Below are positions 1 to 6,991 of a DNA stretch of 6,991 bases, piece by piece. The translations under genes and the position numbers were made by a program. The DNA lies in the NCBI GenBank assembly GCA_021789565.1, contig JAJYJL010000426.1, forward strand, positions 1 through 6,991, written 5' to 3'. The notes below the pieces were generated by a model. It ran no database searches and was not told the origin of the DNA. It saw only the letters and a list, made by a program, of their open reading frames with translations. Position 1 is the stretch's first letter. The number at the start of each line of letters is the position of its first letter. Origin of the DNA: Acidobacteriota bacterium (GTDB taxonomy: Bacteria > Acidobacteriota > Terriglobia > UBA7540).

Positions 1-183
1 GACAAAATCAATTCCGGCTTGTTGCGTTACGTCGGTGAAAACGATCGCCGGATGGTCCGCCGGCAGGTTCCGGGCCGCGCTGTCAAACACCTGCGGCTTT
101 GAATTCTGCTTTGAGCGTGAACAGGCCGTGGCGAATGCCGCAAGAGCGCCGGCGCCTGACAGGAGCATTTCCCGGCGCGTCAT
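1..183 (-). CDS. Tat-exported CRTAC1-like (ASPIC/UnbV, FG-GAP repeat) protein, N-terminal part
   Basis: The first 61 codons are present; the rest lies beyond the window edge. It begins MTRREMLLSGAG, a twin-arginine motif followed by a short hydrophobic stretch, and then ATAC at residues 18-21, a possible though imperfect lipobox (Ala instead of Leu at -3). After a linker comes IVFTDVTQQAGIDFV, at residues 47-61. This closely matches the opening of CRTAC1-type proteins of the ASPIC/UnbV and FG-GAP/VCBS beta-propeller group (typically F-x-DVT-x-x-AGI-x-F). The product is therefore probably exported folded and anchored or released outside the membrane. The start ATG overlaps the stop of the pentaheme cytochrome as ATGA, so the two are probably translationally coupled. 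The family's biochemical role is poorly known; the neighbourhood suggests a link to the cytochrome. The family call rests on about 15 residues. Confidence 0.7.
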   Translation of the reverse strand, partial: MTRREMLLSGAGALAAFATACSRSKQNSKPQVFDSAARNLPADHPAIVFTDVTQQAGIDFV

Positions 184-2306
184 CGGCCCGTCCCTGGTTT
201 GGGCAACGGAGCCAGCGCACTCACTTTGCTCCGCCCGGCTGCAGCGCCGGCTTGTCTGCGGCCCGCCAACTGCACTTCCACGCGGTCCGAAGAGAGGTCG
301 GTGATGGGAGTCGAAAGGTGCTGTCCGGGGAATGAAAAGTCCATAAAGTACTGGTTCGCCTTGCGGTAACGCAACCACGCCGTGATGGTCAGCGGGGTTC
401 GAGCGTTGCGCGGCAGGTTGAACTTGTATTCATACATGTCCGAATAGCCGGGGAAGATCGCCCGTTTCCACTTGGCGCCGACGTAATGCCAAAGGTCGTG
501 GCGGATGATTTCCTGGCCCTGCGGGTTGACCCCGACAGCTTTCAGGACGAAGGTGCCCGGCTCGGTGTGGCCTTGCGCCGTGAGCTCGCCGGAATGGAAG
601 ATGACGCGCCCCGAGGAGTCGCTGACCTTCACTTCGACCCAGGCGCGGATGAGATCGAGCGGACCGGTGGGGAAACTGTGCCCGGCCTTGTTGTTCGAGA
701 GAACGACGCGGAACTCTACAGGCGAGCCCGGACGGGCCGATGCAGGCGCGGCGATCTTGATGGGAATCACCGGGCCCTTTGGCCAGATGTTGGCAATCTC
801 CGGAATATATTTTTCCCCCTTCAACCATTTGATGACCCGTTCGGTCTGCCCGGCGGCGTCAGGCGAATGAATAGTTTCAGGCATCACCTGATTGGCGGCG
901 GCAAACCAGTGATTGCGGTGCTTGAGGCCGAGGCCGGCTTTCAAGTCGTAGGGGTCGGCCAACGCTGCGCTGGGCGCCTGCTGATAGTACATGTGGCACT
1001 GCTGGCAACGGAGCCGGTGAGCAGGATTGGGATCTGTATTCCATTTTCCATGTTTCCAGTCGTCGTACTGGTTCTGGAGCTGCACCCAGCCGATGTGGTT
1101 AATCTGTTTGTCAATGAACTGCTTGTGGCAGGAGGCGCAGGAGGCGGGGTTCTTGTCGAGCGCCAGATCGTAGTCCTCGTCATGCTGCCGGGGATAGGCA
1201 CGAATCAAAAAATGCGTGATGGACGACGCGCGTCCCGCGCCCGCATATTCAAACAGGTATGGCCTGGGAGGCCCCCAGACGTAATTCCCGTTCCCCTGCA
1301 CGTCCACGCGCCGCATCGAGTGACAGGCAATGCAGGAATCCCCTTCCTTGAAGCCCGGAGCCTCGATGCTGGTGCTCGCATTTTTATACGCCGAGAGCAG
1401 CGAGACGGGATCGTGGCAGCCGGCGCAGTAGCGCGTGGCGGGCGCTCCGGCCTCCTTAATCATCGCGCCCTGGATGGCCTGGAAGAATTTATCTTCGGAG
1501 GCCCAGCGATGCGCGCTCGCTCTCCACTCCTGATAAATTCCAGTATGGCAGCCCGCTGCCCCGCACGATTTCGACCCCGCGAGCAGCTCCGGCGCCACCG
1601 GCCCGCCGCTCACCGTCTTCGCCATGCTGGGTGCAAAAGGGTCCTTGCCGTAGGGCATCTTGTAATCGGTTGGCAGCGCGTAATGGCTGAAGTCCGGCGC
1701 GTAGGCCTGGTAAACAACCGCGAGGACGCCGACAACCGCCCCCAGGGCAATCAGAGTCAGGCCGCTGGCCAGCCACATGTGGCGGCGTCCAGGCCCGAAA
1801 TCAGGCAGGGGGGCCTGGCCCGAATTGCCCGGCACGTTCAGGCCGTTGCGCAGGTTCCCTCCCGCTTTCCTGGCATGCGGCCAGACGTGATACCCAAGGA
1901 ACGGCAGGGCCGCAATACCGCTCCACAAGTGCAACTGGCCCCAGAAGTGGCCGGTAAAAAGTCCGAACATCGCCTGCCAGGTGAGGACCAGCCCCGAAAC
2001 GGTCACCACCGCCATCGACCAGAACCCGGTGTAAGCGCAGAACTTCCGAAAAGAACGCCGCACCTTGCGCGTAGCCAGCCAGTGGCTCAACTGCCACAAC
2101 GTGAGAGGTATCACGATGGCAAGGCCCAGCACAGTATGCGCCAGCACCGAGACCTGGATGGGCACGCTGAAGGGCAGCAGCCAGATGGCGAGACCCGTCA
2201 GTGCCAGAAAAATCAGCGTTCCGCTCAGCAGGCTGAAACGGAAGATGCCTTTTTCATGAATAAAAGTATGCCGGATGGGCACAAGCCCATAAGCCGTTTC
2301 TTCCAT
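180..2306 (-). CDS. Membrane cytochrome b / pentaheme cytochrome c fusion protein (cytochrome c554-like)
   Basis: A 708-residue protein. Residues 1-205 hold five membrane helices (about 23-45, 53-75, 91-113, 124-142, 177-201). His57/His75 in helix 2 and His126/His140 (or His144) in helix 4 suit two b hemes. Basic loops at 79-89 and 144-176 put the C-terminal part outside the cytoplasm. Residues 240-440 carry five c-heme sites: CX4CH at 248-254, then CXXCH at 294, 325, 390 and 434. The first sits in a cytochrome c554-like context (SKSC...CHTGIYQEW). Residues about 510-680 form a beta-rich, Ig-like tail with NNKAGHSFPTGPLDLIRAW, as seen after multiheme domains. Likely role: quinol oxidation in the membrane and electron delivery to periplasmic partners (inference). 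The start was chosen because AAGGAG lies 6 bases upstream; an upstream ATG at 2399 lacks support. The substrate is unknown. Confidence 0.85.
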   Translation of the reverse strand: MEETAYGLVPIRHTFIHEKGIFRFSLLSGTLIFLALTGLAIWLLPFSVPIQVSVLAHTVLGLAIVIPLTLWQLSHWLATRKVRRSFRKFCAYTGFWSMAVVTVSGLVLTWQAMFGLFTGHFWGQLHLWSGIAALPFLGYHVWPHARKAGGNLRNGLNVPGNSGQAPLPDFGPGRRHMWLASGLTLIALGAVVGVLAVVYQAYAPDFSHYALPTDYKMPYGKDPFAPSMAKTVSGGPVAPELLAGSKSCGAAGCHTGIYQEWRASAHRWASEDKFFQAIQGAMIKEAGAPATRYCAGCHDPVSLLSAYKNASTSIEAPGFKEGDSCIACHSMRRVDVQGNGNYVWGPPRPYLFEYAGAGRASSITHFLIRAYPRQHDEDYDLALDKNPASCASCHKQFIDKQINHIGWVQLQNQYDDWKHGKWNTDPNPAHRLRCQQCHMYYQQAPSAALADPYDLKAGLGLKHRNHWFAAANQVMPETIHSPDAAGQTERVIKWLKGEKYIPEIANIWPKGPVIPIKIAAPASARPGSPVEFRVVLSNNKAGHSFPTGPLDLIRAWVEVKVSDSSGRVIFHSGELTAQGHTEPGTFVLKAVGVNPQGQEIIRHDLWHYVGAKWKRAIFPGYSDMYEYKFNLPRNARTPLTITAWLRYRKANQYFMDFSFPGQHLSTPITDLSSDRVEVQLAGRRQAGAAAGRSKVSALAPLPKPGTGR

Positions 2307-2312
2307 GCTCTT

Positions 2313-2318
2313 CTCCTT
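2313..2318 (-). promoter_or_regulatory. Ribosome binding site of the b/c fusion cytochrome
   Basis: AAGGAG is read on the minus strand, 6 bases before the ATG at 2306-2304. It is a near-ideal Shine-Dalgarno sequence. It decides the start over the in-frame ATG 31 codons upstream, whose extra residues are polar and would precede the membrane domain. Confidence 0.8.
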
Positions 2319-2340
2319 GGCGGGGTTGCCGTTTCCCTCC

Positions 2341-2375
2341 GCGCAATCGCTCCCCCGGTTGCCCGGCGATTGCGC
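2341..2375 (-). repeat. Perfect 10-bp inverted repeat in the leader of the cytochrome gene
   Basis: GCGCAATCGC (2341-2350) and GCGATTGCGC (2366-2375) are exact reverse complements separated by 15 bases. In RNA this forms a stable GC-rich stem that ends 22 bases before the ribosome binding site. No T-run follows, so it is not an intrinsic terminator of the usual kind. It could be a leader hairpin that affects mRNA stability or translation, or a DNA operator. Its function is not shown by the sequence. Confidence 0.6.
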
Positions 2376-2404
2376 ACCCGCAGTCTGCTGCAAACGCAAG
2401 ACGC

Positions 2405-2433
2405 AGAAAGCGAATTGCTACCTTCTATGTCAA
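2405..2433 (-). promoter_or_regulatory. Candidate activator-dependent promoter for the cytochrome gene
   Basis: A perfect TTGACA -35 hexamer is read on the minus strand at 2433-2428. At 17 bases' spacing the -10 position reads CTTTCT, a poor match to TATAAT. A start of transcription near 2398 would place the CRP-type palindrome at about -60, the classical class I activator position. A weak -10 with a well-placed activator site fits an activated promoter, but the call is tentative. Confidence 0.3.
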
Positions 2434-2449
2434 TGGCTGCGGAGGATGC

Positions 2450-2465
2450 TGTGACTCCGGTCACA
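2450..2465. promoter_or_regulatory. CRP-family operator, TGTGA-N6-TCACA
   Basis: The sequence TGTGACTCCGGTCACA is a perfect 6-4-6 palindrome and contains the full CRP consensus half sites TGTGA and TCACA at the standard 6-base spacing. It lies in the gene-free gap 144 bases before the start of the b/c fusion cytochrome, just upstream of a TTGACA hexamer. CRP/FNR-family regulators respond to cAMP, oxygen, NO or redox state depending on the member. The half sites are CRP-like rather than FNR/DNR-like (TTGAT-N4-ATCAA), so which regulator binds is unknown. Confidence 0.5.
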
Positions 2466-2477
2466 ATAAGTCATAAG

Positions 2478-2497
2478 AATTCCCGGGATAGGGAATT
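2478..2497. repeat. Inverted repeat AATTCCC-N6-GGGAATT
   Basis: Seven-base perfect arms (2478-2484 and 2491-2497) flank the spacer GGGATA. The element lies 12 bases from the CRP-type palindrome on its promoter-distal side. The total length of 20 bases suits a dimeric repressor or activator, but no known consensus is matched with confidence. Confidence 0.4.
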
Positions 2498-2549
2498 TAT
2501 TGGTTGGACTGTACATGAAACCGATTAGAGAAAAAGTGATGGCGGGTAG

Positions 2550-2576
2550 CCACGGTGAGTGGTGTTCTGACCGTGG
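2550..2576 (+). repeat. Inverted repeat CCACGGT/ACCGTGG followed by a T-run on the plus strand
   Basis: Seven-base perfect arms at 2550-2556 and 2570-2576 are separated by 13 bases. On the plus strand they are followed within two bases by TTTTT (2578-2582), the shape of a weak intrinsic terminator for plus-strand transcripts. No plus-strand gene is evident, so this could block antisense transcription or be coincidental. On the minus strand no T-run follows, so it would not end the nnrS unit. Confidence 0.3.
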
Positions 2577-2690
2577 GTTTTTCGTAAGGAAGAGGTCCAC
2601 GACAAGAAAGCGTTGTTAGTCGCTGCCCGCTTGCGAAGACGCAACGAGCCAGTCTCTTAAAGGCTCCCTTGCCTCTCGGCGTTCGCTGAC

Positions 2691-2705
2691 GACTTTTCAA
2701 AAGTC
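2691..2705. repeat. 15-bp palindrome GACTTTTCAAAAGTC
   Basis: This is a perfect 7-1-7 palindrome 22 bases after the stop of the small membrane protein gene. A one-base loop makes it a poor RNA hairpin as written, although opening central pairs would leave a short, weak stem. It is better read as a possible protein-binding dyad. It matches no consensus that I recognise. Confidence 0.35.
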
Positions 2706-2726
2706 CTCCGCGGGCGGGTGGCCGGC

Positions 2727-3134
2727 TTACCCGGAGTGAATCAGGTACAACACTGTGACAACTCCCAGGGCAGCAAGGACAAAGGCCTCTGCCGAGTCGA
2801 AGATGACGATGATTCGTTTCACCGTCGGGGATGCTGTAAAGGCCGGGCCCTTCTCTCTGTTGGGGGTGAACTCGTCTGCGCCCCAGATCCCCAGGTGGAC
2901 CAACGCAAATATGACGACCAGAACCTTCCAGACCAACGGCTGCCACAGAGGCCAGGCCGCCAGCGCCAGCAGCCAGAACACTCCTTCCACTCGCAAGGCG
3001 CGACGCGGCGTGAACCACCGGCTGATCCGGGAATCAGGCTGCTCATTCCACGCCCTGAGGATCCTTCCGGTTGACACATGGATCAGGAGCATCACCGGCG
3101 TATAAACAGCGATGACGAGAGCAAGGATTCTCAT
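2727..3134 (-). CDS. Small four-helix membrane protein, function unknown
   Basis: A 135-residue protein I do not recognise. It has four hydrophobic stretches at about residues 1-20, 50-66, 68-86 and 107-132, with a basic segment at 22-48 and a charged loop at 85-107. Single histidines sit within or at the ends of helices (His19 in helix 1, His80 in helix 3, His133 at the end of helix 4), so heme or metal binding is possible but unproven. No CXXCH is present. The start ATG at 3134 has a modest AAGAGA about 6 bases upstream; the gene begins 62 bases after the nnrS stop and is probably in the same transcript. It could be an accessory or assembly subunit of the adjacent heme-copper enzyme or a partner of NnrS; both are inference. 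Confidence 0.65.
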   Translation of the reverse strand: MRILALVIAVYTPVMLLIHVSTGRILRAWNEQPDSRISRWFTPRRALRVEGVFWLLALAAWPLWQPLVWKVLVVIFALVHLGIWGADEFTPNREKGPAFTASPTVKRIIVIFDSAEAFVLAALGVVTVLYLIHSG

Positions 3135-3170
3135 GGCGTTTCTCTTGTGAAATTAAGCGCCCCGGAATCA

Positions 3171-3185
3171 CGGCGAAAGTCGCCG
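3171..3185 (-). repeat. Short stem-loop between nnrS and the small membrane protein gene
   Basis: CGGCGA (3171-3176) and TCGCCG (3180-3185) pair perfectly around a three-base loop, 11 bases after the nnrS stop codon on the minus strand. No T-run follows, so it is not a normal terminator. It may be a 3'-end stabilising or processing hairpin that tunes expression of the downstream gene, or chance in GC-rich DNA. Confidence 0.35.
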
Positions 3186-3196
3186 CGCCGCAATGC

Positions 3197-4498
3197 TTAT
3201 CTTCCCACGCGTCGTGGCTGACGCTTTTGGAAGAATGCGTTCAATTCGTTGATGAGATGATTCAAGTCTGCGTGGTCTGCCGCTGCCGCCTCCGCCAGAC
3301 TCAGAGAATACGGCGCTTTTTTCGCCATTGAAAGTGTCTTCAGGCCGGCCCGGATGAGCACCGGCCTGGTTTTTGGAAAGCTTGTAACGTACCAGTAAAG
3401 GGGCAACCGGTCGCTGATGCCCTGGGCCGCAAACCAGGCAGGGAGCGGCTGCAGCAGCGTCGCCGCCAGATTGATGACGAAAGCAAGGACGCCCGCGAAT
3501 TCGAGATACGCCGAGACCGGCAGCAGGTTCCAGGCGCTTCCACCAATCGAATAGGCGACCGCTTCGCTTGAAACCCTCAACAGGCAGCCGGCGCTCAACA
3601 GCCAGAGGCTTGCTGCCATCCATCGCGTGCTGTAGAGTTCCCGGCCGTTGAGAAACGAAGGCAGCATTCGTGGGCCGAGCGCAAGAATCAGCAGGGCGAT
3701 AAAACCCACCGTCACGGCATGGCGGGAGGCGCCGCCCAAGCCCGCTGCGCTTGGCACAAGGTCAGCGGCAACACCCAACATCGCTGCTGCTACAAGCCAC
3801 GCGTAGGCAAGGCGAATAAAGGTCGGGTAATGCCGGTAGACTCCTGCGAGCTTGGCGGGCCGCGCTGGCCGGTGAAAAATGCGCAGAGCCCGGATTGCGT
3901 AGATCGAAAGCGCCAGGATCAGCAGGTCGGCGAGGAAGAACTGGCGTGCGAGGGCCAATACCAGAAGGGCGACAATGCCCATGCCGAATTGTCTGGCCGC
4001 CTGATGATGAGGAGGGCTGAGGCCGAGAAAAACCGTAACAAATCTTGTGCTGAAACCCCACGCCGTCACTACGGCAAATCCCCATACCATCAGGATCAGA
4101 AAAGTGTGGTCCCACTCCGGCGGAAACACCGGCGAGCGGCCCTCCAGCGCAAGCCAGGTGGAAAGGCCCAGGTTCAGAATCAGCGCCACGCCCAAGGATA
4201 CAAATCCCCAGATGCCCAGCCACGAGCCCAGGTCTACCGGCTTCTTGCTTTTCTTTTCCGCGCTATTAAAAACCAGGACCCTTTGCGTCACCACGAAAGC
4301 CGCAAGCTCCAGAACAGCAGAGGCGGGCAATCCGGACCGCCAGGTGGTTCCTTCAACGCCGACCCACCAGCGCAAAGCCACTCCCGCGGTCCACAGTCCC
4401 CAGATCAGCCAGACCAGAGAAAACGATCTCAATGGCCGGCCGCGAAACTTAGGGTCTTCAGTGAGGTCAGACGCGGAAATTTTCCAAACCCAATTCAC
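3197..4498 (-). CDS. nnrS: NnrS-family membrane protein with DUF1858-like C-terminal tail
   Basis: A 433-residue protein with about 12 hydrophobic segments up to residue 360. NnrS is a heme- and copper-containing inner-membrane protein linked to nitric oxide metabolism and tolerance. The family call rests on the segment at 258-283 (SRHAVTVGFIALL, then LALGPRMLPSF), which resembles the conserved NnrS pattern of His plus TVG followed by R-x-x-P, and on TRFVTVFLGL at 151-160. Residues about 367-424 (PVLIRAGLKTLS, later SLAEAAAADHADLNHLINELN) resemble the small helical DUF1858 domain and are not part of a minimal NnrS. The start GTG at 4498 forms a GTGA overlap with the stop of subunit I, typical of translational coupling. 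A TTG at 4540 is possible but would overlap by 46 bases. Its position right after the oxidase genes ties the cluster to NO. Confidence 0.75.
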   Translation of the reverse strand: MNWVWKISASDLTEDPKFRGRPLRSFSLVWLIWGLWTAGVALRWWVGVEGTTWRSGLPASAVLELAAFVVTQRVLVFNSAEKKSKKPVDLGSWLGIWGFVSLGVALILNLGLSTWLALEGRSPVFPPEWDHTFLILMVWGFAVVTAWGFSTRFVTVFLGLSPPHHQAARQFGMGIVALLVLALARQFFLADLLILALSIYAIRALRIFHRPARPAKLAGVYRHYPTFIRLAYAWLVAAAMLGVAADLVPSAAGLGGASRHAVTVGFIALLILALGPRMLPSFLNGRELYSTRWMAASLWLLSAGCLLRVSSEAVAYSIGGSAWNLLPVSAYLEFAGVLAFVINLAATLLQPLPAWFAAQGISDRLPLYWYVTSFPKTRPVLIRAGLKTLSMAKKAPYSLSLAEAAAADHADLNHLINELNAFFQKRQPRRVGR

Positions 4499-6069
4499 GA
4501 TCTGAATTGGCCTATTTGCCTTTTCCCGAACTGCCCCCAAATTATTTTCAGGTAACGTCTGCCAGTTTCCCAGAGATAGAGCAAGAGGCCCAAAACAAAC
4601 ACTCCGATAAAGACAACGCTTACCCGCGCGTCATGAGTTCCCCATGCAAGCTCTTGGGGATAGGCGGCATAGCGGCGGGGAATCGAGTGGGCCCCGGCCC
4701 AGAAGAACATCATGACAAATCCATACCCCCCGATGATAAAAAGGGTTACGATAACCCGCCGTACGATGCGGCTGTCCTTAATGCCGCTCAACTCAACGCC
4801 CAGATGGCTTGCAAAACCCAATATCATTAGCACCACGCCCATCAGATAATAGGTGTGGAAGTGCGCAGGCACCCAGAGCGTGTTGTGAAAGATGGAATTG
4901 ACGGAAATCGTGGAATCAATCACCGCGCCCACCCCTCCCACGGCCCAGCCCATCAGTCCCAGGAACATAAAGACTGATGCGATCGTCCAACGCATCCGCG
5001 ATCCATAAACTACCAGGAGACCGTCGAAGATGGAGACCACTGCCGCAGGCACGGCGCTGAAGTAAGACATCATCTGCCCCATGATCTGGAGCATCCGAGG
5101 TTGAACAAAATCCATGTAAAGGTGGTGAAAGTACCCGACCAGCACCATAACCAGAACAGAATTCCAGGCCAGAGCAATGATTCGGTTCATATTCCGTGAA
5201 CGGTTGCTGAAAGTGGGGAGCAGTTCATAGACAACCGCCACGCCGCAATACATTGTGGCGTGCACGCTCATATGGCCAAAGAAGAACGTCAGGTTCTTCA
5301 TCAACAGGGCGTTGGCGACGAAACCTTTCACTTGCCATTGGACAAGGTAAAAAGCGAAAACAACAAACGCATCCAAAAAGCCGACCACCCCGGAGATAAG
5401 GGCCACGATGGTAATCAGCACAATCGGGGGAACTTCCGGCTCCTGTTTGCCTGGATGCCCCCACAAGTAATGCCAGCAGAGGGAGACGCGAAGTGGATAA
5501 CGCCTCAGTATCGCTGCGATCGTGGCGAGCGACCAGACAAGCCAGACGCTGCAAAGTGTCACCAGAGATGCAAAAAAGCACCCCGTGGCCCAAGCAGGCC
5601 AGGTGCCCTGCGAATAAAACGGCAGTGGATAGAGAAAATACCAACCAGTTCCAAACAGCCCGTCCGTTGTTGCTACAACCAGCAACGCAAAGCCGATCAG
5701 GGTTCCACTGAGTGCCAGCCACGACGCCCACAATGGAGGACGAACATACCGGGCCAGCAGATAGCTCACCGCAGCCATTCCAGCAACAAACCACAAGCCG
5801 ACCATACCGACTCCGTGGAGCGTCAGCACGGCGTAAAACCATTCGGGTCGCATGGTTGGGAAAAACTTCGATTGGTACATGCGCAGGAAGTATCCGTCCA
5901 GACTGAAGGTAAGGAACAGCAAACTCGCAATGACCATCCAGAACAGAGTAACTTCCTGCAGCTTTTGAAAGGTCTTCGGATCTTGCAGGCTGGCTTCGAA
6001 AACCGTTGAAGAGTTTTCCGGCCGCCGCTCAATCTCTTGCTGCGGCAATCGGGGATCAGTATCCGACAT
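4495..6069 (-). CDS. Heme-copper oxidase superfamily subunit I (oxygen or nitric oxide reductase catalytic subunit)
   Basis: A 524-residue protein with about 12-13 membrane helices, the usual size. The six conserved histidines are visible: His85 in LTLHGVGM (helix II, low-spin heme), His266 in FFGHMSV (helix VI, CuB), His315-His316 in GYFHHLY (helix VII, CuB), and His403/His405 in WVPAHFHTYY (helix X, high-spin and low-spin heme). Canonical A- and B-type oxidases have Tyr four residues after the helix VI His; here it is His270. The cbb3-type Tyr, six residues before the helix VII HH pair, is Val309. The A-type K-channel Lys after AVP is Val345. The layout (short, CuA partner) is nearest B-type enzymes or the NO reductases derived from oxidases. 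The ATG overlaps the subunit II stop by 14 bases, with GGA upstream. Superfamily membership is certain; substrate is not. Confidence 0.93.
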   Translation of the reverse strand: MSDTDPRLPQQEIERRPENSSTVFEASLQDPKTFQKLQEVTLFWMVIASLLFLTFSLDGYFLRMYQSKFFPTMRPEWFYAVLTLHGVGMVGLWFVAGMAAVSYLLARYVRPPLWASWLALSGTLIGFALLVVATTDGLFGTGWYFLYPLPFYSQGTWPAWATGCFFASLVTLCSVWLVWSLATIAAILRRYPLRVSLCWHYLWGHPGKQEPEVPPIVLITIVALISGVVGFLDAFVVFAFYLVQWQVKGFVANALLMKNLTFFFGHMSVHATMYCGVAVVYELLPTFSNRSRNMNRIIALAWNSVLVMVLVGYFHHLYMDFVQPRMLQIMGQMMSYFSAVPAAVVSIFDGLLVVYGSRMRWTIASVFMFLGLMGWAVGGVGAVIDSTISVNSIFHNTLWVPAHFHTYYLMGVVLMILGFASHLGVELSGIKDSRIVRRVIVTLFIIGGYGFVMMFFWAGAHSIPRRYAAYPQELAWGTHDARVSVVFIGVFVLGLLLYLWETGRRYLKIIWGQFGKRQIGQFRS

Positions 6070-6670
6070 GTGCTTCCGTAGTGGTCGCGGCAGTAGCCGC
6101 AGAATTTGACTGCCTCGGAACTACTTCGAACTCGCCCCGCATGCGGTGGTGACCCATACCACAAAGTTCGAGGCAGAAGACCCAGTAGGTTCCAGGTTTT
6201 GAAAAACGCATTTGCAGATCATTGACATATCCTGGCATCGCCTGTACTTCGCCGAGCAAGTGCCCCGCAGATGAGTAGACACCGAACCCATGGTTTACGT
6301 CGAAACTCGTTACCCGGAATTCCACGAGAGAACCCACCGGAATCCTAATAGGAGGGGCGTAAGTCGCCTCCTGCCACTCATCTGCGTTCTTGATGGGTTG
6401 ACTTGAAAGGCCCCACGAGAATTGCATTCCCACTACGTAAACAACCCGATCGGGCTTCTGAGCGCCCTTAGGATAGGGCATGCGTGGGAACATCAATACA
6501 AAGGCCAGAATCAGCCCCCCGGTCAAAATCCCGAAAAACAACCCCCGCAGGCGACTGACAGATCGCGGTCTGGGCTCGCATTCGTGCCGGGTACTTAGCG
6601 CAACCCACACGAACACTCCCACCACCACTACATTAATGGCGACAAACAGGTAAAATGCCTTGATTTGCAC
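6056..6670 (-). CDS. Heme-copper oxidase subunit II with CuA domain
   Basis: Accepts electrons from cytochrome c and passes them to subunit I. With the GTG start at 6670 it has 204 residues: two membrane helices (about 5-25 and 43-62) separated by a basic loop that should face the cytoplasm, then an extracytoplasmic cupredoxin domain. All CuA ligands are present: His127 in DVNHGFGVY, and Cys166, Glu168, Cys170, His174 and Met177 in CLELCGMGHHRM. An intact CuA site argues that cytochrome c, not quinol, is the direct donor. The start is uncertain. GTG 6670 follows GGGAGGGG by 8 bases and puts the first helix near the N-terminus. ATG 6691, and GTG 6724 (AGGA 5 bases upstream, in-frame stop just before), are alternatives that add 7 or 18 residues. 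The C-terminal end overlaps the subunit I start by 14 bases. Confidence 0.92.
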   Translation of the reverse strand: MQIKAFYLFVAINVVVVGVFVWVALSTRHECEPRPRSVSRLRGLFFGILTGGLILAFVLMFPRMPYPKGAQKPDRVVYVVGMQFSWGLSSQPIKNADEWQEATYAPPIRIPVGSLVEFRVTSFDVNHGFGVYSSAGHLLGEVQAMPGYVNDLQMRFSKPGTYWVFCLELCGMGHHRMRGEFEVVPRQSNSAATAATTTEAHVGY

Positions 6671-6678
6671 TCGAGCCG

Positions 6679-6851: not shown

Positions 6852-6991
6852 TCAGAGAGTCTTCAGGTAGGCGATCAGGTTGTTCATGTCTGACGCTGAG
6901 AGCTTGCCCGCGAAAGGAGGCATGGGCATGGGCTTGCCCTGCGGGTTCCCCTTTTCGATCTGCTCCCGGACGTTGGCAACCGTTGCAGGCC
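6852..6991 (-). CDS. c-type cytochrome, C-terminal fragment
   Basis: The last 45 codons of a gene that begins beyond the window; the frame is open to the edge and ends in TGA at 6854-6852. The tail contains VREQIEKGNP, then KPMPMPPFAGKLS and DMNNLIAYLKTL. This is the usual end of a class I cytochrome c domain: a Met axial ligand in an MPPF-like loop, followed by the C-terminal helix ending AYL. The heme-binding CXXCH would lie upstream and is not seen. Its place directly before the CuA subunit suggests it is the electron donor or a heme c subunit of the same enzyme. A diheme or larger fused protein cannot be excluded. Confidence 0.8.
   Translation of the reverse strand, partial: PATVANVREQIEKGNPQGKPMPMPPFAGKLSASDMNNLIAYLKTL

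Follow-up and report, generated by a model that had tools for sequence, protein, structure and literature searches.

In the portions of the sources drawn on here, the oxygen reductases of the haem-copper superfamily carry a histidine-linked tyrosine that the NO reductases do not carry (PMC3475470), and the residues described in its place in NO reductases are Glu, Gln, Asp and Asn (PMC3475470; Table A4 of PMC8756737). The sNOR (NorSY-SenC) example used for comparison was the pair SPO_RS20760/20755 on the megaplasmid of Ruegeria pomeroyi DSS-3, which is annotated as a cytochrome oxidase. We take Silicibacter to be the former name of Ruegeria. The pair was regarded as an sNOR because the portion of Table A4 of PMC8756737 used here names Silicibacter, and because the pair has the Asn and a SCO gene. 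The function of sNOR is disputed, with the part of PMC6967387 considered here making the counter-proposal of a high-affinity oxidase against that of a NO reductase. For iron oxidation, the order of the Acidithiobacillus rus operon is given as cyc2-cyc1-cup-coxB-coxA in the relevant part of PMC10654088.

The locus described here lies in a stretch of 6,991 nucleotides, which was analysed as a whole and is called the window (Table 1). In a profile search the 524-residue subunit I matched PF00115 with 155.1 bits (E 3.6e-45), and the best solved-structure matches to its AlphaFold2 model (pLDDT 85.3, pTM 0.87) were haem-copper subunits I. All six ligand histidines are present (85, 266, 315, 316, 403 and 405); the metal given for each is a putative assignment that follows the alignment. 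The fold and ligand histidines are like those of the ba3 (B-type) oxygen reductase, but the cross-linked Tyr of the latter is a His in the window, as the Tyr of G-H-P-I-V-Y in Thermus ba3 faced His270 in a phmmer alignment. In the reference alignment the same column held Tyr in 8/8 A- and B-type oxygen reductases, Asn in the R. pomeroyi and Thermomicrobium roseum genes and Glu in the qNOR of the related genome G563. The preliminary description had reported the six ligands, His270 in the Tyr column and Val at position 309, and all of this was borne out. We take position 309 to be the site of the cbb3-type Tyr, and no family row had a Tyr there among the matches listed. Neither the helix VI nor the helix VII tyrosine of the A-, B- and C-types is found in this protein.

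Table 1. Positions of the features of the haem-copper locus in the window.
Feature	Positions	Strand	Basis
Subunit I, haem-copper superfamily, sNOR-like lineage, His270 form	4495..6069	minus	524 aa ORF
His403, proximal ligand of high-spin haem	4861..4863	minus	by alignment
His405, low-spin haem ligand	4855..4857	minus	by alignment
His315-His316, helix VII CuB ligands	5122..5127	minus	by alignment
Val309, place of cbb3-type Tyr	5143..5145	minus	Tyr in 0/168 rows, among matches listed
Tyr274, conserved family-wide, older than the His substitution	5248..5250	minus	Tyr in 167/168 rows, among matches listed
His270, codon CAC, active-site Tyr/Asn/Glu column	5260..5262	minus	alignment
His266, helix VI CuB ligand	5272..5274	minus	by alignment
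His85, low-spin haem ligand	5815..5817	minus	by alignment
CuA subunit II, CLELCGMGHHRM CuA motif, overlaps subunit I start	6056..6670	minus	ORF, PF00116
Small cytochrome c gene, 3' end, directly upstream	6852..6991	minus	PF00034, 21.8 bits against a cut-off of 21.3

The column of residue 270 was then read across 168 aligned family rows including the window, and among the matches listed it held Asn in 145, His in 14, Tyr in five, Leu in three and Glu in one. The rows comprise 120 among the matches listed of 1844, 34 of the 38 loci of one search and 14 loci from genome samples; duplicates were kept and part of the candidates was scored, so that rarer forms may be missed. Besides the window, the His rows among the matches listed were P0002-P0012, P0014 and P0016. 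These 13 proteins share 71-81% identity with the window and come from several sources (P0007 is a protein of an acidobacterial MAG), which excludes a sequencing error as the origin of His270. The Asn-type homologues, mostly from Acidobacteriota and Bacteroidota, have the same fold and ligands at 38-66% identity to the window among the matches listed. They are possibly the published nNOR, for which Murali et al. (PNAS 2024) is reportedly the key survey. In the source annotations the relatives are plainly called 'cytochrome c oxidase subunit I'. Counting all types, homologues were present in 10/396 genomes of the phylum sample and 13/162 genomes of the order of the Tyr-type genome G001, in 8/399 genomes of the class sample of G019, and in 2/40 genomes of the order of G563, which has the His form. 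The sole family row with Glu, as in cNOR and qNOR, among the matches listed was L084 4486-5931 (also L045), with GHVTAE, an altered helix X motif and a SCO gene near.

With His270, the window protein differs from each NO reductase type compared. The cNOR and qNOR are not known to carry CuA. They resemble the window protein in having another polar residue in the same column, but that residue is Glu, as in the G563 qNOR. The eNOR, gNOR and bNOR were compared by their description in the part of Table A4 of PMC8756737 used here, which gives Gln, Asp or Asn in this column. For sNOR the same part gives Asn four residues after the CuB His; an adjacent CuA subunit II and a SenC/SCO gene directly downstream were taken as further marks of this lineage. 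The window has His in the place of this Asn and has the adjacent subunit II; the downstream gene is lacking in the His-type locus L064, and the downstream DNA of the window crosses a doubtful junction (see below). As in the R. pomeroyi pair, the gene for a CuA-type subunit II adjoins that for subunit I, the HH ligands and Tyr274 are present, and the proteins group in the tree; in contrast, identity is 37%, His replaces Asn and no SCO/SenC gene lies beside L064. An unannotated sNOR-like subunit I, open in two different frames, was also seen on a Parasedimentitalea marina plasmid (L076 3991-5480). The suggestion that the enzyme is an undescribed variant fits in so far as His is outside the substitutions given in the parts of PMC3475470 and of Table A4 of PMC8756737 used here.

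The alignment with references and the tree proposed in the preliminary description were carried out with FastTree (178 rows) and with IQ-TREE and UFBoot (92 rows, rooted on A-types). The references were two sNOR-like proteins, one qNOR with a branch of 7.7, and A- and B-types, with bNOR, eNOR and gNOR left out. The H, Y and L forms made a single clade of 22 rows, or 21 distinct proteins (FastTree 1.0; UFBoot 100), and in both trees this clade was nested within the Asn-type, CuA-linked, sNOR-like family, apart from the A- and B-type references. The nodes that join R. pomeroyi and T. roseum, the only two references of this kind, to the family had UFBoot values of 96-97 in the 92-row tree, with labels taken after rerooting. 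The L-types grouped with two His-types (FastTree 1.0; UFBoot 100), while the Y-types fell weakly among the His-types in IQ-TREE (UFBoot 82 down to 39) and beside them in FastTree (0.258). Judged by hand, the IQ-TREE tree is most simply read with Asn replaced by His on the stem, and for the FastTree tree this is one of two such readings. Both trees place the Y-form Tyr as secondary and not as an ancestral oxidase Tyr. These trees thus place the window protein as a CuA-linked haem-copper enzyme within an Asn-type, sNOR-like (NorSY-like) lineage, and more closely within a small clade in which Asn was replaced by His and other lines lost CuB or haem ligands. By descent (the Asn-type family and the R. 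pomeroyi pair) they support the earlier view that the enzyme is not an ordinary oxygen reductase and belongs with an oxidase-derived, CuA-bearing NO reductase family or is an undescribed variant.

Close descent, together with the retained CuA and ligands, would also fit an ordinary sNOR in which the exchange of Asn for His was a neutral swap that left the function unchanged. We consider this very unlikely, as the stem branch of the clade is 0.26-0.34, the operon has changed and ligands were lost within the same clade. An oxygen reductase that still functions with another residue as electron donor is improbable too. The B-type oxidases are the next references to the family in the A-type-rooted IQ-TREE tree, beyond the one very long qNOR branch, sNOR was suggested as an oxidase in N. 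europaea in the part of PMC6967387 considered, and several tyrosines (274, 281 and 336) are conserved in the family; but there is a Tyr at neither of the known positions, and the conserved tyrosines are common to the Asn-types and hence none is new. For the same reason Tyr274, one turn beyond His270, does not provide the partial compensation once proposed for it, since it is present in the Asn-types and in both sNOR-like references and so predates His270.

Within the H/Y/L clade the ligand set is kept by the His-types only. All six ligands are present in 13/14 His rows, and the remaining one, P0016, is incomplete and lacks residue 85. The five Y rows (P0013, P0015, P0017, P0021 and L001 10001-11446) amount to four distinct proteins, since P0021 is the protein of L001, and all five have H266Q and H315N with Y270, although the haem ligands 85, 403 and 405 are kept. 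The Y-type subunit I is likely to be a natural haem-copper relative without CuB. The L-types have H403Y (P0018), H316Q (P0019) or H315D and H316Q (P0020), and together with the Y-types they suggest that the clade may be abandoning CuB chemistry altogether. Decay or non-respiratory reuse, with the binuclear centre being lost, His270 as an early step and the protein serving as a haem electron conduit or a gas-binding module and not as a fast reductase, would account for these losses. This is unlikely, because the His-types keep their ligands, the CuA motif is intact even in the subunit II of the Y-type L001, and dN/dS was about 0.13 for subunit I against L064, the nearest relative with DNA and also a His270 form (dN 0.137, dS 1.06). 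For subunit II, dN was 0.158 and dS 2.16; the dS values are close to saturation. Judged by these ratios, the His-type genes are under purifying selection.

With GTG 6670 as its start, which is the start in L064, subunit II would have 204 residues and a stop; the mechanical ORF start is 6724. Its CuA motif is intact in the window and in L064 as well, and its TIGR02866 score was 87.7 bits, below the cut-off of 147.7. A small cytochrome c gene matching that of the window lies upstream of subunit II in both L064 and L001. A SCO/SenC-type gene (PF02630) directly follows subunit I in 47/49 testable other loci, Asn-types included (two loci were too short), but none was found after subunit I in L064 (5.9 kb downstream) or in the Tyr-type L001, an absence from one His-type and one Tyr-type locus that also fits the loss of the binuclear centre. 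In L064 and L001 the genes for a cyc2-like porin-cytochrome, a cupredoxin-like protein, a cytochrome c, CuA subunit II and subunit I are consecutive. The first two of these, a one-haem protein of 455 residues (452 in L001) and then a 256-residue protein, were both missing in 29/30 other loci with enough upstream DNA, and the remaining one has the 256-residue gene only (21 loci were too short). The window ends inside its cytochrome c gene, so the Cyc2-like operon is not visible there and was read in two genomes. The Cyc2-like gene is apparently also on the same contig as the Tyr-types P0015 and P0017, and perhaps shares a contig with the His-type P0014 and the Asn-type P0027; since P0027 may share this operon, it need not accompany His. 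L064 has an extra cytochrome-like ORF with a weak class III cytochrome match (7288-7872), and L001 has only the cytochrome c, with no such ORF, between the 256-residue gene and subunit II.

The gene row of the two relatives, which runs from the Cyc2-like gene to that of subunit I, is like the rus operon. It differs from it in that the cupredoxin-like gene precedes the cytochrome c gene, the terminal enzyme is sNOR-like and not an aa3 oxidase, no coxC or coxD was noticed in the relatives, and the Cyc2-like protein is putative. The part of PMC8406198 used here gives the Cyc2 motif as AxPxFAR[QK][TY] ahead of one CxxCH, with PxL behind. The 455-residue protein of L064 comes near to this with FARQT-GLP-CSSCH-TIP-PEL, but its AITSFARQT has the Pro replaced. 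Among the listed homologues of this protein, the strict motif was found in 18/120, FAR[QK][TY]...CxxCH in 86/120 and PxL at +4 in 116/120; the family is large (6027 matches) and not tied to the haem-copper enzyme. Its AlphaFold model (mean pLDDT 69.6) has 16 strands, in agreement with Cyc2, whose fused porin barrel has about 16 strands and at least 365 residues, and the model matches porins, including OprO and OprP (TM-score by query, 0.38-0.49 for the 50 matches listed). The protein is a candidate Cyc2-like porin-cytochrome that may oxidize Fe(II). In the 256-residue protein a CxxHxxM motif was seen, and its match to a blue copper protein was weak (E 0.05), so that the name cupredoxin-like is a lead.

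Two contigs of G563 match the window in separate parts, C1 at 1-2318 and 2738-4453 and C29 at 4511-6671 and 6856-6989. Both are at 74-77% nucleotide identity, and such similar distances of the two halves fit one lineage for both. At the joint, 4453-4511, a NnrS gene lacks its 5' part, with about 105 N-terminal residues left out. The joint is a rearrangement or a chimeric contig, and the NnrS neighbour lies across this unreliable junction; the genes at 1-4453 are thus not to be counted as an operon of subunit I. The His270 finding is not affected, being placed entirely in the right half. In the left half, 180-2309 on the minus strand encodes a 709-residue protein with a DUF4405 membrane part and a multihaem cytochrome part (PF14522, PF13435 and MtrC/MtrF-like matches); L083 holds a copy of it with 75% identity. 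Between the G563 homologues of the window genes 2309-180 and 3134-2727 there is, at L083 6786-7475, a second NnrS-like match, which is weak (28%) and runs in the opposite direction; the window lacks the room for this match at that place.

The draft genomes of relatives give the background of the enzyme. G563 also encodes an A-type oxidase and an HxxxE-bearing qNOR, so its His-type enzyme is additional to these. Profile searches of G563 for NirK (TIGR02376) and Sec-type NosZ (TIGR04246) gave no NirK match and no NosZ over the cut-off, and a NO supply is therefore not evident in this genome. G001 has an A-type oxidase besides the clade enzyme, and a NirK-like match of 123 bits that is below the cut-off of 296.3.

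Taken together, we put a probability of about one half on the enzyme being a terminal reductase that is derived from NO reductases, possibly fed by an outer-membrane electron-uptake chain and no ordinary O2-to-water oxidase, with His270 on the distal metal or close to it. In favour of this reading are the nesting within the Asn-types, the R. pomeroyi pair next to the family, the retained ligands and CuA, the purifying selection, the A-type oxidase and qNOR that G563 has besides, and the operon of the relatives with its porin-like model. Against it stand the argument that sNOR is a high-affinity oxidase (PMC6967387, in the part considered), the ligand losses of the Y- and L-types, the NO supply that is not evident in G563, and an operon read in two genomes. 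In this reading, electrons would be supplied by a chain in the periplasm, whose donor is perhaps extracellular, for instance Fe(II), and would pass from cytochrome c to CuA, then to the low-spin haem and on to the haem-CuB site. There NO, or another small oxidant, would be reduced without requiring a tyrosyl electron; it is an established argument that two-electron reduction of NO needs no tyrosyl donor. The Glu of qNOR binds FeB, and because His270 shares the column of this Glu, it would most likely bond to, or hydrogen-bond beside, the distal metal or the bound substrate. The chemistry of the His270 enzyme is probably unusual. A distal site of four His (with CuB or FeB), joined to Cyc2-type electron uptake at the outer membrane and an oxidation of extracellular Fe(II) coupled to the reduction of NO or another oxidant, with the sister proteins then CuA-linked and haem-only, goes further and is unlikely. 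No four-His distal metal site is described for the haem-copper superfamily in the portions of the literature covered here.

The residue in this column is what splits O2 reductases (Tyr) from NO reductases (Glu, Gln, Asp or Asn) in current classifications. A natural clade with His and two ligand-losing lines thus offers a ready series on the need for the tyrosine and for CuB. In the relatives, a rus-like gene order is combined with a terminal enzyme that resembles NO reductases, which suggests that a particular respiratory wiring lies behind the plain oxidase annotation.
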